Assembly: GCA_034509925.1 (NCBI GenBank)
Contig: CM067536.1
Span: forward strand, 9,423,001 to 9,487,000
Direction: 5' to 3'
Source of the DNA: Hirudinaria manillensis
Lineage: Eukaryota > Annelida > Clitellata > Hirudinida > Hirudinidae
Length of the DNA stretch: 64,000 nucleotides
The notes below the pieces were generated by a model, which saw only the letters and a program-made list of their open reading frames with translations, was not told the DNA's origin and did not search any database. Positions 19,940-36,955 of the stretch are shown piece by piece. Both the position numbers and the translations under genes were made by a program. Position 1 is the first letter of the stretch. Every line of letters starts with the position of its first letter.

Positions 19940-20697
19940 ATGCAGAGGGTCAACGTGAAAAGCAATGTCGTTCAAAGCTTTGACGAAGTTATGCACGGCG
20001 ACAAATATTTTCCAAACCAATCCGTCACTTTTGACTACAAGGATACATCCAACTACCGACCTGGAACAGACAGCGAAATCAATTATTCCCCGAAGGTTAA
20101 GAAACCATAGATTCAATTATCGCTAACGCTGCATGCTTTTCATAACCAGAAATTTAAGCGGTATTTGAACAAACACCTATTCAACATAATCTTGAAACTG
20201 TCCGATCAATTTTGAGGCATTGCCGGGGTACTGCACGAGAGATCGCATTTATAAATGAACTTTAATCGCTTTTAAGTTGATAACCATAGCAAACTGAGTG
20301 ACATTCTGATCAGCCTCGAACCACGAGGTTTCAACCTAAGGTAAACCCGAAACAAAATCATTCGCATCATGACCGCCAGGTTCTCATCGGCTCCTGGTAC
20401 GAAGAACGCCAAGACTTGAGATATCTCGGCAGAGGCGAAGTTCTACAGTCACCGTGTAACGGCTACTATCAGACGACTTACGGCATCGATTACAACATCC
20501 AACCGGTCCATAGGATACCGACGGTTCTTTTGGGATTCTCAAACCACCGAAAAAACAGGAAATTTGTGTCCTATCCAGCCCATCAGCCAGAACTTGATCT
20601 GCCCCTAAGGAATTTTGTGCCCTGGGAGACTACCTACGATGCCTACTTCAAGAAGCATCCCATCATCTGTCAAAAATGCCCCTACATTGAAGATTGA
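19940..20697 (+). CDS. Small two-exon protein, possibly a ciliary microtubule inner protein
   Basis: Two exons join cleanly: 19940-20095 (ends SPK|GTTAAG) and 20314-20697 (acceptor GATCAG, phase 0), giving about 179 residues. The product has no signal peptide or membrane segment. It is rich in Tyr, Pro, Asn and His, with short motifs such as VLIGSWYEERQDL, NGYYQTTYGIDY and WETTYDAYF, and ends CQKCPYIED. The G-x-W-x-EER motif followed by Tyr-rich segments recalls small microtubule inner proteins of motile axonemes (CFAP107/C1orf158 type), but I recall that family only loosely. The gene lies between the UGT remnant and APEX1. That this is a real gene is moderately secure from the phase-matched splice sites; the function is a guess. 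Confidence 0.5.
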
Positions 20698-20824: not shown

Positions 20825-22644
20825 TCATTGTAAGTGCATGAAAAGGGTTATTGGGCAATGGTCACTGCCATACACGTCCTTCCTGATGACACTATCGCAC
20901 AGGCAAGACTCGAGTTTGGGTGAAATTAGGAAATAATCCAATCTCCTGAAATTTCAGCAAGTTAGTAAATAATATGGCAACTTCCAACTCAGAAATAAAC
21001 ATTCCACTGGCATTGAACTTCTATTCAAATGGGTGCATATAAACAATTGAAAGCAATCTAACCATCCCACATTCTTTGCCCTGGCATTACTCATGTAAGT
21101 CCAGTAAGTGTATGCTCCTTTCTCCTTGGGATGGAGTTGCCTAAAGGTGTCAATGAAGGTTTTGCCCAACAGTTTGCTGAAGCTTTCTCTTTCCTCTTTG
21201 GTAAAACCAGCCGTTTTGTGATTGCTTTTTGGATTGGCCAAATCTGTCATGTCGATCACATATTTAAGTGATTAGAATAAAGAGTTTCTAAAGTGCTTGT
21301 TATGAAGCCTAATATAATAATAGCACGTCGCTAACGAAAGAGAGATGATAGAAATGCAATTTTCACGTTACCTATTTCTTGGTGAGCCACATTTAAATCT
21401 CCACACAAAATGACTGGTTTGTCCTTTTCTAGCCCTAGGAGGTAGTCGTGGAAGTCAACGTCCCATTCATTTACCCTGTATTCAAGCCTGGGCAAGCCTC
21501 TCCCAGAGTTGGGCACATCTGAGAAAAGCATAATAAACTTCATGATATAAATTAAAAATAATGTTAATAAATCCTACCATTTATTTAACAGGTTAGTGTT
21601 ACCAAACATAATTATAAATTAGGTGGTGTTGGTGAGAAGCAAAAATAATAGAGGATAATGAATGAAATCCCCAACACAGATTAGATTTTCATTTGGATCA
21701 CTTTAAAATGAATAAAAATTTGACCGGGACCAACACGCCGTGACGAAGTAGAAGTTCTCGTATTCTGCCGTGATCACTCGACCCTCCTTGTCGTGTTTCT
21801 CGTGACCTGAAACAACAACAACGATAGTAGCAACGACATCGTCATCACAAGGAAAAAACTTAAGCATCACCTATCCCAAATGTTACTTCAATTGGCTTGA
21901 CCTTGGAATAGAGTCCAGTCCCAGAATATCCATCCTTATCCCCAGACACCCAATACAGATGATAGCCTTTGATAGAAACCTCATCTGGAACATTGTCCTT
22001 ATCACACTTTGTTTCCTGGAGACAGAAAACGTCTGGATCTTCAGCTGCTATGAATGAATGTCCATTTTTCTGTAATCAAATAATTAATATTTATGGGCAA
22101 CCAATTTTAAGAACATATGAACATTATAATAATTATATAATTATACAATGAACATCAAATATCAATGCATTAAATATAGCTAAAAAAACCAGAGAGTAAA
22201 AAATAAGTAATGACCAAAATAACAAAACAATATCAGCAAGTATCACTAACTTCACACCAGGCTCTTAATCCATTGACATTCCAGGATGAAAACTTCAAAT
22301 TCCATTTTCTCCCATTGGAATCTTTACTTTCTGATGAAAAGTCCAAGTTGTTGACATCTGGTATTGATTCTCTTGTTTTCTGTTGGTCATCAAAGAGTAA
22401 ACACTTCATTAACTAACGATTAACATCTCATAAATAACTGCATATAAGAGCACACATTACCTCTTTTGTCATAAAACAACAAATTAATTTATAACTTGCC
22501 TTCGATTTCTTTGGCTTGCTTAATTCATCAGAACTATCAGGTTGCTGTTGCAAAATGTTATCGAAACATTATTTATCTTATTTCAAGTTGCTGCTTAATA
22601 AAGAATAGTTTGCAACGCTCACTCACTTTCCTTTTAGGAGGCAT
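20825..22644 (-). CDS. APEX1: AP endonuclease (APEX1/exonuclease III family)
   Basis: Base-excision repair enzyme that cuts DNA 5' of abasic sites in the nucleus. The start is ATG at 22644 (MPPKRK, then a GTGAGT donor), followed by small basic or acidic N-terminal exons near 22500-22550. Core exons, with matching phases, are about 22251-22393 ([12 protein letters not shown]), 21871-22069 (CLQETKCD and SGTGLYSK), 21735-21806, 21372-21518 ([14 protein letters not shown] and GDLNVAH), 21063-21243 ([17 protein letters not shown]) and 20825-20945 (RLDYFLIS, then [10 protein letters not shown]). All hallmark residues of the family are present: the metal-binding Glu in QETK, the Asp and Asn of GDLN, and the terminal SDHCP His. 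The N-terminal region is short and KPKKSK-like, suggesting nuclear import. The gene starts about 470 bp from the oppositely transcribed IRAK1BP1-like gene. Confidence 0.93.
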
Positions 22645-23112
22645 AACAATAAAAGACTTGCGGACTGCAATCAACTTTACCAAAGAGCTATTGTAAGCAA
22701 AAACCCGCGCACGGCCAACATTTGCGTACAACATGCACACACCACAAACCAAACAGTCCCTTAACTGAATCATATATTCGAGATATCAAAAGTTAAATTT
22801 AATTATTAATCAACTTATGACAACATCACGTTTTAATTAATATGAAAATGTCATGAACCCATTGGTAATTGAAGGTATTTTTAATTATAAATATAAATAA
22901 ATATAAAGAACTATAAGAACACATTTTTTATCATTTCAAGAATTAAATTTAGATAAATAAAATTATAAATTGTTTAAAAAAAAGTTCTATACTAAAGTTG
23001 AGCAAAACATGTTCTAACACATTCCCTATATTTAAATGGTATTGGTTCACGCTATTCGACATACATATCGTAACCATATGGTAACCGTTATGATTCACGG
23101 ACTCACAAACAA
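22645..23112. promoter_or_regulatory. Probable bidirectional promoter region between APEX1 and the IRAK1BP1-like gene
   Basis: The two start codons face away from each other across 468 bp, so both promoters must lie here unless untranslated exons sit elsewhere. The region is AT-rich, and I could not identify a reliable TATA box or initiator. Confidence 0.4.
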
Positions 23113-24240
23113 ATGCATACGATAACAGTTTCTTCAGTTAGGGAGTTGTCAGCTGCTCCGGACGTCTGCGATCTCAGACTCCTCGTCAGGACTTCCAAGA
23201 CGAGTGCCAATGAAGCCAGGGAGAGTGCCCAAAGGAGAATCGATTACATACTTCAAGTTATAAGAGATCAGAAAATTGGGGTCTGCATATATGTCCATTT
23301 GTTGTATTTTATATTGATTTTCTTGGAGTTGGTTAAAATGGGCTGATGCAAAAAAGAAAAGAAAAACTAAATATCTTCGAATATAGCTGGAAAAATTCAA
23401 TTTTCGGGATTTACAAAAAAAAATTCTTCTACCGCATAATTACTGATTTGCATTTGTTCTTGGGTTTTGCTTGCTTATGCCAATGAAATAACCATAATTT
23501 CCTTGCAGAGAAAGCAAGTACAACTGGGGAGGTCTCTGGAGAAATTGAAGGATGAATATGTTCTGTGCACAGAACTATGTGTAACAATCACTGGGGACAT
23601 CGAGAGATGGCTAAATATTCACAACACAATTGTTGAGAAGTTGGATCATGTTCTTATAGATGAGCCTGTGTTTTATCATAGTGATGGCTGCCTCCAACAG
23701 CTCAGGTGATACATGTTTACATTGAAATTTATATGACTTCCCTAAAACATCTTAAATGGATTTCTTTCTTAAAGCAAACTATCTCTTATCATCAATAAGG
23801 TTTTGTTTAAAGATTAGATTATGATTTGCTGATTAAACCTAAATTAGTGAGGATTTTAATTTTAAAATTATTTTTAAGTTTGAAGTAGTAATATTTAAAT
23901 TTATTGTTTCTGGTGATTATTGTAGATTGAACTGATTGACACATAATTCTAAAAAAAATAATTCTGTTTAATATTCAGGCAAAAAGCCTTTAGGCAAGCT
24001 ATTAAACACTGCAAAGATAAAGCAGATGGCATTGCTGAAACTTTGAATACCAAGATAGAAGGAGTGGTTTCGGTCGAAGAGAAAGAGAGTCGGGAATGGC
24101 ACGGATCCTCCAAGTCTCGAACGACGGACGGAAAAAGCGTCGGAGACGAAGGAAGGTTCTCCATTCGTCTGCCCGTCGAATCTGCCTGTCGGAACGTTTC
24201 GACGAGAGTTGTGGTGACCTTTCGACTCGAGGAAAAGTAG
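23113..24240 (+). CDS. IRAK1BP1: IRAK1BP1/SIMPL-domain protein homologue
   Basis: Three exons, 23113-23280, 23509-23705 and 23979-24240, join in frame (the last junction restores an Arg codon AG|G) to give about 208 residues. The order of motifs follows vertebrate IRAK1BP1, a SIMPL (DUF541) protein: an opening segment SVRELSAAPDVCDLRLLVRT, then ANEARESAQRRIDYIL, TELCVTITGDIERW, IVEKLD, EPVFYHS and SVEEKESREWHG, with a closing VVVTFRLEEK. Vertebrate IRAK1BP1 binds IRAK1 and modulates NF-kB signalling; whether that holds in this animal is unknown, since the domain also occurs widely in bacteria. It is slightly shorter than the human protein. The stop codon is followed immediately by a GTT-rich microsatellite. 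Confidence 0.85.
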
Positions 24241-24360
24241 TTGTGTTGAGTTGTTGTTGATGTCGTGTTGTTGTTGTGTCGAGTTGTTGTTGTTGATGTC
24301 GTGTTGTTGTTGTTGTGTCGGGTTGTTGATGTTGTGTCGTGTTGTTGATGTTGTCTTAAT
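24240..24360. repeat. (GTT)n/GATGTC compound microsatellite
   Basis: Irregular repetition of GTTGTTGTTGATGTCGTG units begins right at the stop codon of the IRAK1BP1-like gene, so it probably sits in the 3' untranslated region. On the other strand it reads as Asn/Gln runs, which explains the open frame there. Confidence 0.85.
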
Positions 24361-24711
24361 TTTTTTCTTCCACATTTCCATCTGAGGCAGCTGTTATGTT
24401 GAGCTGTAACTATTTATTACTATATTAGAATATTACTTTTAGAGATAATCATTAGGAATATTAATGTTATTAGGAATATCAAACTGTAAAAATGTCAAGA
24501 ATTACCACCGTGGTTGTTATTAAAATTATTGTGGTCAATGATTGTCATTTCCATGGTAAACAAGTATTGTTATTCATGTAAACAAAAGTTTAGGCATTTT
24601 AAATGTGTGTGACTCACCATTGTTAGGTTAAATTTATTATATAAAAAAAATTACAAGATTAAATTGTTATAAACATCAGTAAATGCATTGATCGGTGCAA
24701 TATCGTCTGCA

Positions 24712-25916
24712 GATGAATATGTTCTTTTGAATGTCACGCTTCGCTGCTCGCATCGAATCATCACAAGTAAAGGGATGTTCTTCCACTATCGCGTGCTTGC
24801 GTCGTGTTTATCTAATTTTTATTGTTGCAAATCAATTTGCATTATTTTGTCTGAGGATGCATTTGGCCTTGAATTTACAGGATTCGGACAAATTGTGATT
24901 CGTCCGTGGAGTTTGGAAAGTGCATTGGGAGGGAAGCTTCGTCCATGAATGCCATTTAACCATCTGGTTATTCGGGCCTCATTCTTCTTTCAAGCCTCAT
25001 TTCAGTGTGAAGTGTAAAGTGCTGGTGGCAACGACAATAATCAGTTTGAATAAGTACTCAGAGTCCTTAGGATTAAAAGAAACAGCTGAATGCCCGCACA
25101 AAGACCTCAAATGCGGCAGTTTAATGCTCTAGTTCTCGATTGTTGGTTAAATGCTCGGATCTTCATTGCGTTCGTCCACGTCGTTGGATTTCAGAAAGTT
25201 TGTCATTTCACGACTTAAATATTTAAAGGATTAAAATTAACTGAGGACAGTCGACGTTTGTTTGATTCTTCGTTTATATTTGACGAGATGGGATTCGGGT
25301 GCAGGAACAATAAGAGTAGTTACTTGATTATCGGAAGTAGAAAAGATTGTTGAGGCAAGATTTCATGATACGACGACTTGCTGCTAATAGTAACAACTGC
25401 TTAGCACTACGGTTTATCACATTATTCCACAAATTCCTACTCTGTCAACAGAAGGACAATGATGAGAAATATTGGCATGGTCTTCCTGATGGCTTCCATA
25501 TTGTTGATGAAAATACAGGTGAGATTTTTGCTTGAGAATGTAATGCGCCTTATGTACGCGTCAAATGCACTTTATGTTTTATGTTGAGCAGAAAATTAGT
25601 CGCCGGCACATATATTGTTAGTACAGCTTTAGCTGGACTCGGGCACAGTATAAGTTATAATTATTGAGTCTTATTATTGAAGATTTTAAGGTGCACATCA
25701 TGCAGAATAAATAATAAATGGCATAATAGTACATTCTAATGATAATAAAATGTTGAAATACCCAATAGGTCTTTGAATGTGATCAAGATGCAGGAAATGA
25801 TGGTGAAGAAGATGATGATAATGATCACTCATGCAGCCCTCACATGGAGCCTGGAGTAAAGAAGATGCTGAGAAAGTGCACAGATTTTATGTGGAAAAGT
25901 CTAGGAATGGCCCCAG
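24712..25916 (+). other. Orphan exon-like segments, gene unknown
   Basis: Four short open segments bordered by plausible splice signals lie in an otherwise empty 2.7-kb gap: about 24712-24764 (EYVLLNVTLRCSHRIIT, GTAAAG donor), 24882-24948 (FGQIVIRPWSLESALGG, ending in a stop), 25453-25518 (KYWHGLPDGFHIVDENT, GTGAGA donor) and about 25770-25915 (acidic stretch, then PGVKKMLRKCTDFMWKS, GTAAGT donor). The first two join in phase 1. The third can join the fourth only if an acceptor inside the fourth (after GATGCAG) is used. I recognise no family. They could be 5' exons of the astacin-like gene downstream, a separate small gene, or chance. Confidence 0.3.
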
Positions 25917-26163
25917 TAAGTATTAGAATTAATTATAATAATATAATTATAATAATGAGAATTAGTTATAATAATGTTAGTCTTCTGTTTATGTGATGTT
26001 GTGCATATTTATAATTGCTTAACAACTCATTAAGAATAAGTGCAATAAAACTTCACAGAAGGTGGTTCCCGCTTCTCGAATGATTATTTAAGTTTTAAAT
26101 CCCTACAACAAACTGGAAAAGAAAACTGGAAAGAAAACTCATCGTCGTCGTCGCCACGTGGCT

Positions 26164-26210
<47 letters not shown>

Positions 26211-26211
26211 T
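26164..26211. repeat. (CAT)n microsatellite
   Basis: About sixteen tandem ATC/CAT units form an uninterrupted array. The minus-strand Asp-rich open frame across it is a by-product of the repeat. Confidence 0.93.
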
Positions 26212-27027
26212 ATCCTTGTCACCATCGTCGTCGAACGTCATCACCGTCATGTTGTATTGCAATAAAAAGTGCAATAACAAATAATATACTGAAAATGTTT
26301 TCAATTCTGAATGAAAAGTGTAATAATATAATATAATAATATAATAAATATAATAATAACAAGAAATTTTTATGACACGATTCCAAACAAAGTTATGACC
26401 TTGGTAGACAGCAAATCCAAATCTATGGTCATCTCAAGAATTTAAGCCTAAGAGATTAAAGAGCTGAAAAGAATTTCATTCAAATTTTTCAAGATGCCCT
26501 TCTTTTATTTTAAGTGGAAGTCCTATTTTTAAGTAACAGAAAAAATTTCAGAGTTTACTTTCTTATTCAGTTCAATACTCTGTCATATCTTTAAGTTATT
26601 GCTTGACCTTCATACGGTGTGGGTGCAAATGTTTATCTATTTGAGGAGGTATTAAATCTATTGATGGAAGAATGATCTGTTTGCTCTAATTTTGAGAGTG
26701 ATTTTTGATGTTTTCAAGTGGCTTATTATTGTTATGCTTGTCATTATTGTTTAATATTATTATAACTCATACTGTTTTTTCCATAGAACTTATAACAAAA
26801 CCAAACAGAATTCTTTGCAGAAAACCTAAGGTCTAAGATGCAATTTCCGATCGGCCCATTTTGGCAAGAAATATTAAATAATAGAATAATCAATTCAATT
26901 CTTTCATTAGCCATCGTTATCACGATCACACCAACAGATTTCCAGCATCACTTTTGGATGCCTTGGACCTGGGCAGATTATTGACGTTATTACGGCTAGT
27001 ATACTTGCCGACGCTTGTCTCTACGAA

Positions 27028-30000
27028 ATGGGTCACCAACCAAAAACCCCATCAAGCAAGGACTGCCTCAGCAAAGATTTCGTCAGCAGTAGCAGCAGCA
27101 GCAGTAGTAGCAGTAGCAGCAGCAGTAGTGGTAGTAGCGGCGGCAGCTGTGATGGAGACGAGTCCAGCAATCCACCTGATGAAGGCAACATCGACGATGG
27201 CCACAACACCGAGGAATTTGGAGGCAGCATGAGTCACGATGATTCCGGCGCAGTGGATCTTAAACTTCGTTTAAGTACGAAGCAAAGGATTAGGAAGAAG
27301 AGAGGATTGGCCTCATCACTTCCCGCTTATAAATGGTCGATGCCCATTTCCTACTCTTTCAGTTTAGAACAGTCTGGAATAATCGGTTGGATTCGTTTGT
27401 GATGATGATGATGATAATGATGATAACTCGCTCGTGAAAGTCATTGATATTGTGCAGATGTGGAAAGAGTGAAAGCGGAAGTGAGAAGAGCGATGTTCGT
27501 CGTCCAATCGGTCACCTGCGTGACATTCGCGGAAACAAATCAAAATCCTCAACTTATCTTTTATACTTCCTCCAGGTTCATCTTAGAATCATTCACAAAG
27601 AATTGTAACAAAGTTGTAACAACGTTCAGTTCATCCTAATGTTCAACTTCTATGCTTGACCTTTTTTTTTTTTGCAACATACCTTACATTTCGTGTACAT
27701 CGTGTATCTTCAAGTTAATTATGACTTTCACAAATCAACTGACAAGCGAAATCTGGGCCGAATCGACAGCGGCCGTTGCTTGCCTCTAAATACCAATAGG
27801 CAAACATTTACCATAACCTTATATTTAAATAAATAAATATTATTACATAACAGACAACTAAATGATTTATTATTATTATTATTGTTATTATTATTATTAA
27901 TATCAGTTGTTTATTTCTTCGGCAGCTGTGCTTCTTACACAGGAAGAAGAGCCAACAATGCCGTCAACGTCGTTTATCTTGGGCCTGAGTGTCAATATTC
28001 GGTAAGTGGGTTTTGTTCGCATTTGCATCAAAAGCAGTTAGTTTTGGGTTTTTATTTACCTTTACAATTTTTAGTCATTTTTGTCTAAACTTCGTGCAGT
28101 TTTTAACAGCTATGGCCAAGTTGGATCAATAATAATAACCGTTATAATAAGGCTAATACTGGTTGGAAGATTCATATTAAACGAATTGATTGGGCCTTAA
28201 ATTGCTAGTCTATTAAAGAATAATCTCAGCGTTAAGTTGATGGAATGTTGAGATCATTTACTTCAATAGGCAGGTCAGATACTATACCTGCTCGTTCAAA
28301 CGCTTGGCTTCTTCAATGAACACCAAAGATCAGACAGAGATGACTTCGTGACCATCAACCCAAATAACATTTCTCCAACTAGACTCGATGCTTTCATCAC
28401 CATCCCCAAGAGCATCGCCACGACCTTTGACCTAAACTACGACTACCACTCGATCATGCACCAACCTCCAAAGGTTACTCCTTGGATGCGTGTGATTAAA
28501 ATAAATGGATGTAAATAAATCGATTTCATCGATTGGTGAAATGGTTTCTGCAAGAAACAACAGCGATAACCGGAGACGATGTCTTTTGTTCTTAACAGTT
28601 CCTTTCTTCAAATGCTGGGCTGACCCTAGAGACCAAAGATCCGTTGTATCAATACGGCTTGGGCCAAAGGGTGGAATTATCGTTCCTAGATAAAATTTCT
28701 ATCAACACAATGTACTGCAAAGGTTCGAATTCTCAGTTTGGAGACTCCGATTTGTGTTGATATGATTAACGTGTGTTTCAGACGCATGTAACAACGTACT
28801 CGATCCTCCTTGCATCAACGGAGGAGTCAGAGATCCAAATGCGTGCGACAGGTGCTCCTGTCCCGATGGATTCTCTGGGATACATTGCCAGGATGTCCAA
28901 TCGCAAAGCACCAGCGGTCAGTTTGAAGTTCATTGAAAGTTTTAAGCAGCGATGGGAGAACGCCTGGGGATTATTTTTTTTATTTCAATTTAATTTTTAA
29001 AAAATTTTTATTTTGAGTCACCAGAAGCAATAAAAGTGTGCTCGACAATTGTCCAAAATGATTTAACGACAGTTAAATTAGGCGCACTGCGTAGAAGGCT
29101 CGGGGAATAAATAGAAGTGAAAGCACGAATGAAATGCGACCATTTAAGAGACCACATTAGGGAGTAACTCGAGAATAACGCCCAGCTTGGGGCTATTAAT
29201 AGCATCCATAAAGAATAGCTATTGTAACATTGCTATTGCTACCTGGTCATTCCTTAATGTTATTAATGTATTAATTAATTATTCATCGTATTACAATTCA
29301 TGACATTCAAAACAGAATGTTCGACCAACGAGGTGGATCTCGCATCGACACAATCCACGACAATTCAATCACCTGGCTACGATAATCCTCGCTTTTACAG
29401 ATCAGGTGTCTCGTGCACCTGGATTGTTAAGGTGGTTTCGATTTGTCACCTTCCATTGATTATTTATTGAATTGTTCTGCATTTTCATCACTTAAAAGTG
29501 AAAGATATTGTTAGGCGCTTCCGGCCAGCATCATTTCCGCAGCGTTTGTTGGAGAGTTTGGCGTTTTCTGCAAGGATTCATCGTCTTGTCAACATTGGGT
29601 CGAAATCAGAAACAAAAAACCATTTTCGAGCAGTGGACCAAGGTAGGATAGAGACGCGTTGCACAAATAATTCGAAGTAACACTTTATGACCTCGTACAG
29701 ATTCTGCTGCAATTCTCTTCCGTATCGTAGCGTCACGTCGGAGGATAACGAGATGATGATTCTCTTTAGAACTTATGACATCGATGGCATTGCTGGGAGC
29801 AACAGGGGATTTCGCTTGAGTTTATCGAGTAAATGGTCTTTATTACTGAAATAAGTGTTTTGCATGTACTATATAAACATCCACTTGGAGGGATATTTTT
29901 GCAGCAACTACGTTAAATACATTCTTTCTTAAAACTTTGAATAACATTTTAGACGCTCGTAGTGAAACAGCTTTAATCAGGCGTTAATAAACAAAGTGAC

Positions 30001-33000
30001 TAGCTATTTCATAACTTTTCAAACGTTACTTCATTTCCAGCTTCCAGACCTTGCCCTGCCTGGTCAATCCAAGTGGATGTAAATTCCGTTGGTGGACGAC
30101 TCGTCCCTTCTTCTGGAAGCAGTCAAATGAATCTGGATATTTGTAAGAATTATTGTTCTTCTCAAGCAGAATGTCTCGGCTTTGATTTTTCCCTGTCTTC
30201 GACCAATCAAGAAAAATGCTTCGTATATACCGACCAATCGGCATTCTCGGTTAAATATTCAACAAAGGATGTCATTCAGTATCGTCTGGACAGATCAAAT
30301 TGCCCCGGAACATTAACGCAGCCGACAGACAGAAATCCTGGCAGAAATCCCGCGAGCTCCACCACGACCACCACGACGGCCGCTACGACTACGACGACTT
30401 CGACTACAACGTCAACAACGAGCGTACAAACCAGTACCACCGTCACTCCTTCGACGACCACGAAGTTTACCCCGCCGACGACTTCCACTTTTTTCACTTC
30501 GACCTCAACTTCCACTACTACGACCACTTTGGAACCTCGTTCGTACAAGATGAACGATTTCATTGATTTTTGAATTATTAATTTTAAAAATAATAAAGAT
30601 AATAAATTTAAAAAATGGGACAAGAGCTGAATTTAACGCCAAAGTATAAAAATAAAGATTTATATTTCAATTTTGACTTTCTTTTCAGCTTGTTACAGGT
30701 GGATGGAAATGGTGGACACCCAGTCCGTTGGCGGAATTCAAGCCTTTCAAATAAATAACCTGGAATCATGTCGATCCCATTGCTTGTCTCTGATGGACGG
30801 TTGTGTTGCATTCGGTATGGACATCAACCCGTTCACACCGACGTGCTGGATTTTTGGAAGTTCTGTTAATTTGTGGCCCATTCGTAACAACAAGATGTTT
30901 CTCTTTGTCAAGAGAAGATGCGACGATATCCCACGTAAGACAAGCGTTACCTTTAATTCTCAATTAATGCCGATGGTTTAAGCATTGCATCAAATAATGC
31001 GTTCGTTTGTTAAAAATGCGTTCATTTATATTCATCGTTCCAGTGCCATGTCCCGAGCCAAAAATTTCGTTTGATACGAGTTCTATCGGAGGAGTAAAAG
31101 TCACCGACCTCTGGACTTCCACGGCACGAGATTGTTCGTCGAGATGTAACGATTCCACTACCCAGTGCTATGGATTCGATTTTAATTATTCTGAGCTTTC
31201 CTGTTGGCTCCACTTGGATGCTACCAAATTGAGTCAATCCTATCACAATCCAGGCGTACTTCAAGTGATTTTTCAGAAGCCCTGTCCCCTGAGGCAAGAG
31301 CCTACGACGACCACGACGACGGCATTCGTCACGAGAATTTTTGTCGAACCGACACTTCAAGGGGGTGCGATTATAAAATTATGAGACTTTTTTTGTGCTG
31401 CTAACGTCGTTATAAATGAATGTCAACAGCAACGTGTCCCAAGTGGACTTTCGCGACTGACACGAGCTCTCCCGGTGGGAATTTTGTTCCGGGTCTCAGT
31501 AGCATTTTCGATTGCCGTTCCTACTGCCAGAATTACGAGCCCTGCATAGGCATCGATTTTCAAACGAGGACTTCTATTCCGGAATGCTGGATCCACATCA
31601 GTCGGGAAGTGATGAACCATCGCTATTCCAATCCCGGCGTTCAACAGGGAGTATTGGAAAGGTGTCCAGTCTCTACCACCACTACCTCCACTACCACCAC
31701 TTCGCAGCCCTCGACCACCACTGTTGGCATTGTGCCACCAGACAGTGAGTGGGTCGATGACCTCAATTCAAGACTCAATAAATACATGAATAAATGGATT
31801 TTATTAGACCTAAATGGCTTTAATTTCAATATTTGACACTTCTGCAAAGGCAAGCAGTCGAACCTGAGGCTAATTTTAAAGATTCGGTTTTATAGTATAA
31901 ATTTCATATTATTTGTCTAATTATTTTTATTATTTTATTTTCTAAAGTCAATTAATAATAACATTAATAATTCAAAGGAAACAGTTGTCCTTATTGGACG
32001 GTGAATGCAGGCAGGGCTTCAATGGGTGGAGTCTTACAGAATCTAGTCACAACATTTCGATCGTGTCTCGATTTCTGTCTATCCTTGGATTCGTGTGCTG
32101 GATTTGATTACAGGGATTCTCAATGTTGGACTCATACGGATCAGACAATCAAGTATGAAGTTTCCAACCCTTTTGTCACTCAGGTTAAAGTCGTGGATAG
32201 ATGCCAAGGTCCCTCGACTAAGTTTTTTGTCACCACCACGACGGCATCATCTTCCGTTACAGGGCAGGGTAAGCGAAAGACTAAATAAGTCGTATTTATT
32301 AGTAGATATTGTTGCTATTAGTAGTAAAACGTGAAAACACTCTCAATAAAAGCGTTGTTATTTCTATTTCCAGACGTTCCCTGTCGACCGGAATGGTTGA
32401 ATAAAATTGGTCAACACTCCCCAGGAGGCGAGTATGTCGCCGATGTAGGCACCGAAGAAGCGTGTAAAAATAAATGCCTTTCCACCTCCGACTGTTTTGG
32501 TTTGGATTTCAACTGGATGAAGTCTCCTGGAGAATGTTGGATCCATCGCAATAAAAACGACCTGGACACCGTCCTTTCCGATGCATCCGTCAACCAATAT
32601 CTTCTGGTGAAGAGATGTACAGGAACATGTGAGTTGGTTTGTTTACTTCTTCCATTGATTGGATGCTAGTTTATTAAATTTTTTTAGTAACAATTCAAAG
32701 GGTCATTTTAATGAAATTTGTTTAAGAAACTTTTGTGAGTACCCATTGATGCATTCACAACACTTTGTGGAAGATTTATTCAGTTGTTCAGTATTCAATT
32801 ACTACAAAAATGACAATTAAATATTGTTGCGGATGACGTAAAACATTGGCACTCGCTGGTCATTTGTGATTTGTTAAACTTATTAAATGTTACACAAATT
32901 ATTTACCCACGTCTTGAAATCGACAGCTTCATGCGAAAACAAGTGGATCATTAAGTATGGCTCGTACAGTCCAGGCGGATATTCCAATTCATTTGTAAGA

Positions 33001-34708
33001 ACGGTCTTAGATTGCCTCCAGGCGTGCATAGACGATCTCACGTGTGCCGGAGTAGATGTCGATTCCAGTGGTTTGAGCATTACTTGCACGGTTCACTCCA
33101 ATGTCGCAGACTTCCTGCAAGCACGTTCGGATTCCAGGTTCAGCCAGTACAGGGTTTCTGCCAGATGCCCTATCCAATCCTATCCGAGTGAGTCGACGTC
33201 TTTCTTTTTCCGCTCCTATGAGTTTAAGTGAAGGTTGAATAATTTTCATTTCTTGATGGATTACTGAAAAATTACAAATATATGCAAAACTTGCAATTCA
33301 AAATGAAGGAGTTAAATGATTAAATCAACCCAATTATTTACTTTCTTAGATTATTAGATATTGAATACTTTGTACTTTTAGTCTTGTTTCTTGTGTTTTT
33401 TTTAAAAATAAATTATGGTAACGATTGACCACTCGATTTTGCCCTAATTTTTCCGGAGCGAGAATTTACATTTTGGTTGGAGAAATGTATATTTTGCATG
33501 GAATGTTAGGTTCGTGCCAAGATATGTGGGTCATCAGGAAGGGCTTCCAATCGGAAGGAGCCACCAAAGTTCCTCAACCGCTGACCCTCTTGGACTGCCT
33601 GTCGAATTGCTCTTCGGTTTCGTATTGCATCGGAGCGGATTTCAATGCTGCCTCTAGTCCTCCTGAATGCTGGCTTCACCACGATATCTCAAAGTTCAGT
33701 AAAAAATTGAGTAATCCAAACATCGTACAATATGAAATACTCCAAAGATGTTCAAGCTCTTGGGAAAAACTGAACGGTAGATCGAGTATAGTTGGGAAAA
33801 GTTTGCTTTAATTACGATTGTAATGATTACGATTATCATGGTTTCCAGGAGGATGCGGAGGGGTACGAGCCAGCCCGGGACAGGTGAATCCGGCGTGCAT
33901 GACCGTCGACAAGCCCGTGGCCACTTGTAACGTGGCCGTCACCACCTTTGAAAGTTCTGGAAGAGGGTGGACCCTGAGGCAAGTCCAAAATTGTATAAAG
34001 AAAGTATGACTTAAAGAAATACTTACATCGTGCGATACTTCAGGTACACGAACAATGCGCTTCCCTGCACGACGCCGACATGTCTCGGGTCATCGCAAGT
34101 GGTTAACTTCGGATCGACTCCCGTCTGCATAGGTTGGATTTTTGTAATAGTAATAGTTACTATAAATTATAGTTATTAAATATTTTGTCAACAAACCTAT
34201 GAATATATTGATAGATGTGTTTTTTTTTTGTTGGTTTAAATTTGGAAATGCAGGAACATATTTCACCATCTTTGCTCATAAATTATTTTAAAAATATCTT
34301 GTGTTATTAAAGCATAGAAAATGATATTGTAGTTATTGCAAATAAGGGTGTGCTTTAATAAAGAATGGGAAAGTATTCTCATGTAAAGAAAAATCATTGA
34401 AGTGCTGGGTTGGTCACCGTGGCAACAGTGTAGCAGATGGTGCGGCGGAGGGGTTCAGTTCCGTTATTTTTACTCCGTCGGCAATGGATTGTATCAGACG
34501 TAAGTAATGAATATGTTAATTAAAGATGTTTGATTTGGTGTTGTGACTTCTTGATGAGACATCATTGCTGACAGAGACTCTACAGCAAAGAAGTTTTAAA
34601 CATTTTAACAATTTCATTAATATAATAAGTACAACTTAACATAACATCATTTTCTGTTCATCCAGAACAAATGAAGAGCAAAGACCTTGTAACCTGCAGT
34701 CTTGCTGA
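27028..34708 (+). CDS. Secreted pseudo-astacin with EGF, CUB, eight PAN modules and TSP1
   Basis: Multi-exon extracellular protein. Exons 1-9 join with agreeing phases: pro-region to 27385 (Ser run, basic RIRKKR cleavage site, then the mature-start-like YKWSMPISYSF), 27458-27575 (AMFVVQSVTCVTF), 27926-28001 (CASYTGRR), 28270-28473 (GFFNEHQRSDRDDF, SIMHQ), 28599-28722 (GLGQRVELSFLD), 28782-28916 (EGF, CINGGVRDPNACDRC), and 29316-29431, 29515-29642, 29701-29828 (CUB). The fold is clearly astacin M12A, but the zinc motif HExxHxxGxxH reads YLLVQTLGFFN, so all three His and the catalytic Glu are lost. PAN-like modules start at about 30041, 30690, 31044, 31429, 31980, 32373, 32927 and 33513, mostly one per exon and often joined by Thr-rich linkers. 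Then come a Cys-containing segment (33849-34134) and a TSP1 repeat (WSPWQQCSRWCGGG to RPCNLQSC, stop 34708). Astacin-EGF-CUB-TSP1 is the plan of nematode subgroup V NAS proteases. The true start and signal peptide were not found. Confidence 0.85.
27085..27135 (+). repeat. AGC/AGT repeat coding a polyserine run
   Basis: Mixed AGC and AGT codons encode about fifteen consecutive Ser in the pro-region of the astacin-like protein. The codon mixture suggests an older, partly degenerate trinucleotide expansion inside coding sequence. Confidence 0.8.
30358..30535 (+). other. Thr-rich mucin-like linker after the first PAN module
   Basis: This part of the exon encodes nearly sixty residues, mostly Thr with Ser, Pro and Ala, directly after the first PAN module. 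Such sequence is usually densely O-glycosylated and works as a stiff extracellular spacer. Shorter Thr-rich spacers follow the third, fourth and fifth PAN modules. Thr codons are mixed ACG, ACC, ACT and ACA, so it is not a simple repeat. Confidence 0.8.
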
Positions 34709-34963
34709 TATAAACGAGCTTGAACAGATGCATCTCATTGGACTGCCTCAGCTGGAGTGACTCTTTCAGTTTTAGATTCTGATTTAGACAAACATCAATA
34801 GAGTGGAACAAAGTTTTAGCACCTATGAACTTGTCATTATTAGATTTTGTTTTTATAGAAAAATTGATTCGCTAATAACTTGTAAAAGGATGACGTCTTT
34901 GCCGTTCGTGCATTTGTCGACGAGACGTGCCGAGAGCTATTAAACATTTTTGCGTCGGCTACC

Positions 34964-36955
34964 GTTCAATCTATGTTTGAGGCAAGCTTTATATCAGGTA
35001 CCATCTTAGTAACGGGCATTGTGTTCGTGTTTTTGAAGCTTTCTCCAAACATATACGAATGTAGCCAGTCGTGATCCGCGTAGGCCCGTCGAGTGACCTT
35101 GTTGCCAAAGCTTCGGAGGATGAGACCCTTGCACAAGGCTTGACCTCTGGGATTCAGGGATTTCATGGATTTGGGGTGACATTTACTCGAGAGAGTGCCG
35201 CTCTCACTCCTGTCAAAGGTGGGGAAAAAGAACTTTGGTGGCAAAACTAATACTTCTGCTGGCCTTTCAAATTTTTTCTTTTCCTGAAGTTAGAAAATTG
35301 TCATAAGACAATTCTGAAATCTGAAATGACTGTTCAGTGCTCTGTGCTTATTTTGTACTTTAGAAAACTAGCACATATATCTTATAATCAACATATGCAT
35401 TGGAATGTATGAACAGAATTAAATGAATAATTTATTATAAAAATCTGTACTACTTTGAATGTGCCAAAACTTTGCTAACAAGTGAAAAGCAAGTGAAATA
35501 TTTAAAATTATAAATTCCTTATTAGATATTTAAGAAATCAATTTACCTTCTTAGACCAATTTTGGTAAACACCATTAAAAAATATCGGACCTGTCGCTTC
35601 GAGATAGTCTCCAAAATATAAGCCAGCTGCTTTCTGTCAAAATTATCCATTATTAATACCATTTGTTTTAATCAAGATTAGACTTCTAAAAACGATAAAA
35701 ACATGGTTAGTTAAATATTAACTAATGATATTGCATTCAGCTAAAGCCAATCTGAGTGTCTTAAGTGCCACAATGAAATGTGGAAGGTCAACTCTAGCCC
35801 TTATTTTGCAATAATTTATAATCAAATGACATAGAGATAATTACTTCTAAGGATTCCAAAGCCAATTGTAAGAAAGGATGTTCCTGTGTGCATGCAATGA
35901 ACCCATTAAGTACATTGGAATCATTTTGTTCCCTGATGACAAAAGAATGCTCATAAGGTTCTTCACTGACTATACAGTCATAAGTCTGGGTCCAATTGTC
36001 GAGGGGCTGTAAACAACTCATGTCTAGGTCGACATAAATGCCTCCGTAGTAGTGAATAATGAAATATCTAGCAGCATCTGTTGAAAATGAGACTTAATCA
36101 TTAATTCTTAGCTGTTTAAAATTATTATAAAATTATCTACCTTCTAGTTTTGTTGAGAAATTAATGATAAGCATGTATAATCCATTTTTATGTTTTTATA
36201 TCTGACCTGCTCTGAAAATGGAAGACAGGTATGACTCATAGAGAACCAAATAATTTGGGTAATGGGTTTCAATCAGCTTCTTAGCATCATCCAAGGTCCA
36301 AAACCAATGCTCCCAATGAGGATTCACAGATTTCCATGTCTTTATCCAGGTCAAAAACCTTTCTGGAACTTCATAAGTATCCCATATCTTTTAAACATTG
36401 TAAATAAGGGAACTTTTAGATATATTAAATATAAAATATATATTTATAAAATATATTATAAAAAAATTGAATGAAGAATTGGCTGAGTATTGCCTCTGAG
36501 GCATTCATTGGCAGGTTAATTATGCCTAACTGTAGGAGTTTGTCTACTTCTCTTTGATTTTAGCCTTTGAAAGCCAATATTGTTTCACAATTTATTAGTT
36601 GCCAATACCTGGTGTATGATCTTTGGTATTCTATCAGAGTAAGCATCATCTTTTTTAAAACCTGGCTTCAGGAAAACAGGCTCAAAGTTGATATTAGAAA
36701 AGAGCCGTTCGTCATCAGAAGGATCAATCGATGTATTTATATCTGGAGATGATCAACAATCTTATTGATTTAATTATGCTAAAATAGCTTTTAAGTTGTA
36801 TTTCAAATGCACGATAAGTTACCTTCTTGAAACTTGACAAAGGGATCTTCTTCGTGTCTCAATGAAAATTTTAAAACCACGCCTACAAAGAAGAGCACAA
36901 GAAACGCCTTGCAACATCTACTTAGAGGGCACCTTTGACAGATCTTCGGTTGCAT
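34964..36955 (-). CDS. Type II membrane glycosyltransferase with DXD motif (Gly_transf_sug / OCH1-MIPC-like)
   Basis: Golgi-type enzyme of the DXD sugar-transfer family (Pfam Gly_transf_sug). Six exons are readable on the minus strand: about 36955-36823 (short cytoplasmic tail, then the membrane anchor AFLVLFFVGVVLKF), 36747-36612 (RIPKIIHQ, the usual domain start), 36394-36212 (WKSVNPHWEHWFWTLDD), 36077-35845 (DAARYFIIHYYGGIYVDLD, the catalytic DXD region), 35635-35550, and 35280-34966 (AYADHDWLHSYM). The order IPKIIHQ, then W-x-x-NP, then RY-x-x-x-x-x-YGG-x-Y-x-D-x-D is typical. The sequence looks closer to fungal-type OCH1 and inositol-phosphoceramide mannosyltransferases than to vertebrate A4GNT/A4GALT, but donor and acceptor cannot be assigned. 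All key residues are present, so activity is likely. Confidence 0.85.

Follow-up and report, generated by a model that had tools for sequence, protein, structure and literature searches.

A 22-exon gene of Hirudinaria manillensis probably encodes a secreted pseudo-peptidase, in which the product of a duplicated astacin-EGF-CUB gene that lost zinc and catalysis serves to bind and not to catalyze. As far as gene anatomy goes, its reading as an intact pseudo-astacin is well supported. In the predicted gene, the catalytic residues are lost while the gene itself is intact, which is the property that marks a pseudoenzyme.

Gene model and the replaced active site

The gene model was read from the DNA sequence of the window, i.e., the whole stretch of 64,000 nucleotides that was analysed. 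It occupies positions 25459-34291 of the forward strand and comprises 1,456 open codons, with a stop codon ending at 34291. The exons are a reading of the sequence and the transcript is putative; exons 1-3 and 20-22 were assigned mostly from the open frame and splice signals and are the least certain. The splice sites flanking the domain had been described as open in the original prediction, and the model agreed, with 20 of the 21 introns being GT-AG and one, after exon 20, being GC-AG. The GC donor of that intron (GCAAGT, window 33979) is required for the open frame to continue into the C-terminal exons. The predicted product consists, in order, of a signal peptide, a prodomain with an RKKR site, an astacin domain, an EGF-like module, a CUB domain, and eight PAN-like repeats. 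The features are as follows (window coordinates).

Exon 1, 25459..25518, + strand: ATG and a signal-peptide-like hydrophobic stretch; open frame, donor GTGAGA; the weakest part of the model
Exon 2, 25769..25915, + strand: prodomain, acidic, with Cys; in-phase AG/GT borders
Exon 3, 26938..27361, + strand: Ser-rich prodomain, RKKR furin-type site, and start of the mature astacin domain (W..PISYSF)
Exon 4, 27458..27575, + strand: astacin domain, TCVTF
Exon 5, 27926..28001, + strand: astacin domain, CASYTGRR to ECQYS; border phases match the counterpart in the paralogue on contig C7
Exon 6, 28270..28473, + strand: pseudo-active-site helix and Met-turn; length (204 nt) and phase equal to those of the C7 exon coding HELGHAIGFWH
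Helix YLLVQTLGFFN, 28285..28317, + strand: replaces HExxHxxGxxH
Met-turn SIMHQ, 28450..28464, + strand: Met kept, Gln for Tyr
Exon 7, 28599..28722, + strand: end of the astacin domain, GLGQRVELSFLD...MYC
Exon 8, 28782..28916, + strand: EGF-like module; EGF_2 E = 6.6e-4, 20.4 bits, under the curated cut-off of 22.1
Exons 9-11, 29316-29431, 29515-29642, and 29701-29828, + strand: CUB domain, E = 8.4e-9 (piecewise profile search)
Exons 12-19, 30041..33776, + strand: eight PAN-like repeats
Exons 20-22, 33849-33978, 34044-34132, and 34254-34291, + strand: Cys-containing C-terminal tail and stop codon

The assignment of the domain is based on a search of the spliced product with Pfam Astacin (PF01400), which matched over profile positions 2-189 of 189 with E = 1.7e-37; as the match is full-length at this E-value, it is not a chance match. 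The exons named as astacin-coding in the original prediction were found in phase with one another, namely those carrying CVTF (exon 4), CASYTGRR (exon 5), EHQRSDRDDFVTIN (exon 6), and GLGQRVELSFLD (exon 7). Four domain cysteines are the pattern of the astacin family, and all four are present (in TCV, SCA, ECQ, and YCK). The same four-cysteine pattern is given in the available text of a spider study (PMC5553785).

Exon 6 is preceded by AG and followed by GT, runs from phase 0 to phase 0, and reads AGQILYLLVQTLGFFNEHQRSDRDDFVTINPNNISPTRLDAFITIPKSIATTFDLNYDYHSIMHQPPK. The codons at 28285-28317 are TAC CTG CTC GTT CAA ACG CTT GGC TTC TTC AAT, encoding YLLVQTLGFFN; the helix and the SIMHQ turn are thus exactly as first reported, in both codons and coordinates. 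At the positions of HExxHxxGxxH, none of the four catalytic residues is kept (0/4) and the Gly is kept. Together with the Met-turn Tyr, the three zinc His and the catalytic Glu are all replaced in frame, and two further helix positions are altered (G to V and W to F). A compensated frameshift was ruled out as the origin of this helix: the other two frames of 28285-28320 read TCSFKRLASSM and PARSNAWLLQ followed by a stop, and the C7 exon aligns without gaps. By fold and homology the domain belongs to M12A; the zinc site of an M12A peptidase and a Met-turn SxMHY with its Tyr switch are absent.

A metzincin that lacks the three His, the Glu, and the Tyr should neither bind zinc nor hydrolyze. As every zinc-holding and cutting residue is replaced, the domain is most likely a binding protein and no enzyme, and we infer that a function has been retained. 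The Met-turn Met, the helix Gly, and the Glu behind the third His position are retained in the domain. In astacins, the mature N-terminus is anchored at the Glu that follows the third His. Since these three residues and the four cysteines remain, fold and maturation have probably been kept.

The furin-type RKKR comprises residues 188-191; the conserved Trp follows it at the eleventh position. FxGD is the aspartate-switch motif of the astacin prodomain. No motif of the F-x-G-D type was present in the 1,456 amino acids, also when other hydrophobic first residues were allowed (the prodomain exons are uncertain), and two tolloid-type paralogues have FLGD/YLGD-IALTEEDL upstream.

In a profile search of the whole product, Astacin, PAN_1, CUB, and PAN_3 exceeded their cut-offs. 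The PAN-like repeats are encoded one per exon with every border in phase 1, and Thr-rich linkers follow some of them; repeats and linkers together take up residues 554 to 1371 of 1,456, more than half of the product. In the piecewise profile search, six of the eight repeats had a PAN match at E <= 0.05, with one repeat above the curated cut-off. The repeat pattern is the sole basis for calling repeats 4 and 7 PAN-like. Several PAN-like-repeat matches also occur on contig C12 of the genome (G000), in two groups at about 5.14-5.15 Mb and 7.51-7.79 Mb, perhaps representing separate PAN-array genes.

Paralogues, homologues, and alternative exons

The genome (148,429,096 bases in 23 contigs) yielded at least nine matching pieces with Pfam Astacin, which we grouped into five genes: the gene studied here, two tolloid-type genes (C3:6.207 Mb and C10:203 kb), a divergent gene (C10:8.058 Mb), and the gene at C7:2.968 Mb. 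Each of the remaining four genes codes HELGHxIGF(W/Y)HE, so that HExxHxxGxxH is kept in 4/4. When the astacin-EGF-CUB part was used as a query, 16 places in the genome matched, seven of them outside the studied gene (best candidates scored). Among the candidates scored, the best place outside the gene was C7 (residues 66-157, 38% identity, E = 6.3e-7); next came another C7 piece, which aligned with the EGF part (37%, E = 1.9e-6).

The active-site exon of C7 is 204 nt long, runs from phase 0 to phase 0, and aligns gap-free with exon 6, with 27 of 68 residues identical; in all, the two genes have 54 of 132 aligned residues in common. The C7 exon upstream stops at the matching position, in phase 0, and the start of the downstream exon matches as well. 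The C7 gene (L028/L029) thus resembles the studied gene in where the introns next to the active-site exon lie, in their phases, and in having an EGF-like piece and a CUB domain, whereas it differs in keeping HELGHAIGFWH and MHY. Its CUB pieces, joined by eye, matched Pfam CUB with E = 1.9e-14, and its EGF-like piece was under every EGF cut-off; the region compared is partly masked, including where PAN repeats could follow. Because the active-site exons are gap-free and equal in length, the phases match, and EGF-like and CUB parts occur in both, the two genes look as if they arose by duplication of a single astacin-EGF-CUB gene. A reverse-transcriptase-like frame of 1,205 codons (L029:3870-7487, - strand), probably a mobile element, lies upstream of the C7 astacin exons and on the same strand as these.

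Protein searches returned no match among 1,969 candidates at E <= 0.001 for the whole protein (residues 196-560 scored), and none among 40 candidates for the astacin domain alone. A five-row alignment query retrieved 739 astacins at E <= 1e-8, and HExxHxxGxxH was present in 120/120 of those listed. Since four active paralogues were part of the query and most of the named entries are of tolloid type, this count is no measure of how rare pseudo-astacins are. No leech orthologue was recognised among the best 120 of the 739 matches, these 120 showing at most 37% identity.

An alternative exon restoring HExxHxxGxxH had been named as a finding that would overturn the original prediction. None was found: between 24000 and 35000 of the window, neither strand contains a contiguous HExxH-coding stretch, and no further copy of exon 6 turned up when the genome was searched with the domain (best candidates scored). 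In the full 64 kb, HExxH-coding stretches occur once per strand, at 20234 and 10739.

Conservation, decay, and rival explanations

Conservation was assessed against a reference alignment of C7, the three other paralogues, TLL1, and BMP1, using columns with residues in at least five of the six sequences, of which 35 were invariant. The studied domain kept 25 of the 30 non-catalytic invariant columns and 0 of the 5 catalytic ones (Fisher p = 7.8e-4 against six references that are related to one another, some with joins made by eye). The losses are not independent, because four of the five lost residues share one helix with further changes. Against the 120 listed homologues (of 739), 28 of the 50 columns with at least 95% identity were kept, and the five catalytic columns were all among the 22 lost; this contrast is weaker (p about 0.012, calculated by hand), and the named homologues are mostly tolloid-type.

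Of the 15 bases in the five catalytic codons, 8 are not those of C7. In a neutral simulation of the whole coding sequence, which used substitutions alone and no indels, stop-free copies numbered 59/300 at 1%, 6/300 at 2%, and 0/300 at 5% divergence. As no copy remained stop-free at 5% and more than half of the catalytic bases differ from C7, a long neutral decay is unlikely. The dN/dS against C7, calculated for exon 6 only, was 0.40 (0.62/1.56); dS is near saturation, and the ratio was therefore not taken as proof of selection. The original prediction had favored an intact pseudo-protease over a decaying gene, and this part holds at the level of sequence, as the frame is intact, the catalytic residues have gone as a set, and the domain retains most structural positions of the family; the binding or scaffolding role that it added is putative.

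The main rival holds that the protein acts through CUB and PAN, and that the astacin domain has merely stayed open and foldable without a selected binding role. We regard this as unlikely on balance. The PAN array with its linkers does dominate the product, and some pseudo-ADAMs discard their pseudo-peptidase domains, as described in the available text of PMC11266112, but the large majority of the family-invariant non-catalytic positions, the furin-type site, and the four domain cysteines have been retained. A gene that died recently, with its active site decaying and its frame as yet unbroken, would be compatible with a dN/dS that comes from one exon with dS near saturation; it is nevertheless very unlikely, as the extent of change in the catalytic codons stands against 1,456 codons without a stop, and no simulated copy was stop-free at 5% neutral divergence. 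An error of assembly or a contaminating sequence, in favor of which no evidence was found, is highly improbable, given that the substitutions are in frame, the gene is well formed and lies on a contig of 9.59 Mb, and its exon borders are common to a paralogue in the same genome. Alternative splicing that brings back a catalytic exon and yields an active isoform has a negligible probability: no evidence in its favor was found, the surrounding 24000-35000 interval has no contiguous HExxH-coding stretch, and the nearest place outside the gene, C7, lies on another contig (best candidates scored).

Under the preferred reading of a non-catalytic binding module, the duplicated astacin-EGF-CUB gene would have lost zinc and catalysis through substitution. 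The domain would still fold, and maturation at RKKR would allow the new N-terminus to reach the Glu that is still present after the third ligand position. The cleft or the surface could then bind an astacin substrate or partner without catalysis, with the CUB domain and the PAN array tethering the protein or adding contacts to matrix or glycoproteins. Within the animal, the protein may be a competitor of the active astacins or may bring them into position. A more specific proposal, which we consider doubtful, is that a leech-lineage pseudo-astacin was combined with a PAN array and, once secreted, acts on matrix or haemostatic proteins as a multivalent decoy or trap, or else regulates the astacins of the leech itself without catalysis; if true, M12A would have an equivalent of the pseudo-ADAMs.

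Known systems and secreted leech proteins

Tolloids contain CUB and EGF modules, with several CUB domains in a different order and no PAN array. The studied gene departs from the BMP1/tolloid layout in having an EGF-like module and one CUB domain followed by eight PAN-like repeats. BMP1/tolloid proteins (BMP1 and TLL1; PDB 3edh and 3edi) are the best solved relatives of the domain; their zinc site is of the active type, whereas that of the studied domain is replaced.

The pseudo-ADAMs (ADAM2, 11, 22, 23, and 32) are similar to the studied domain in that they retain the helix Gly and the Met-turn Met but have other residues in place of zinc ligands and/or the Glu; the site of ADAM23, for example, is QSLAQNLGIQWE (PMC11266112, Table 2). 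ADAMs differ in their disintegrin and transmembrane parts (as given in the available text of PMC11266112), and their kinship to the studied domain lies only within the metzincins. In the available text of this 2024 review of inactive metallopeptidases, the M12 members are all ADAM-type, C. elegans unc-71 being named beside the ADAMs, and their losses are similar in kind to those described here (PMC11266112). A fully site-stripped astacin with a well-kept domain would extend pseudo-peptidases from ADAMs, where they are well described, to M12A and provide a natural test of the astacin fold without zinc, in an animal whose secretions are pharmacologically important.

Among astacins of spider digestive fluid, the motif and/or the cysteines were found in only nine of the 12 sequences of one species, according to the available text of PMC5553785; motif-poor astacin sequences have thus already been seen. 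In a salmon louse study, the full motif is reported for 8/8 astacins. Neither a pseudo-astacin nor an M12A protein with a PAN array appeared among the literature matches listed, which is weak evidence, as subscription journals are thinly covered.

Secretions of the salivary cells of medicinal leeches are reported to contain M12 proteases (M12B being discussed) and PAN-domain proteins, including the leech antiplatelet protein LAPP, a PAN protein with affinity for collagens (available sections of PMC7191736). LAPP and the salivary PAN-domain proteins share with the studied gene a PAN module in a secreted leech protein, secretion being predicted for the product of the studied gene. A closer link to LAPP was not obtained from structures, as no solved structure matched a stretch of four of the eight repeats in sequence at E <= 1. 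The word "astacin" has 0 occurrences in the leech salivary study (PMC7191736), which counts against a salivary role, and 0 occurrences in a leech comparative genomics paper (PMC10087013).

With regard to other leech protein families, at least 63 antistasin-domain matches were obtained in the genome (150 of 162 candidates scored), most of them on G000:C2, with many sites within 0.08-14.04 Mb. One match to the hirudin family, with 33.9 bits over profile positions 17-42 of 64, exceeded the cut-off. The hirudin-family and antistasin-domain profiles had no match in 14 control genomes, and their matches here indicate a leech genome. On the reverse strand of the window, putative AP-endonuclease frames lie at 21331-22785, and a frame at 35794-36093 with YYGGIYVDLDMSCLQPLDNW resembles the DxD region of a putative sugar transferase.
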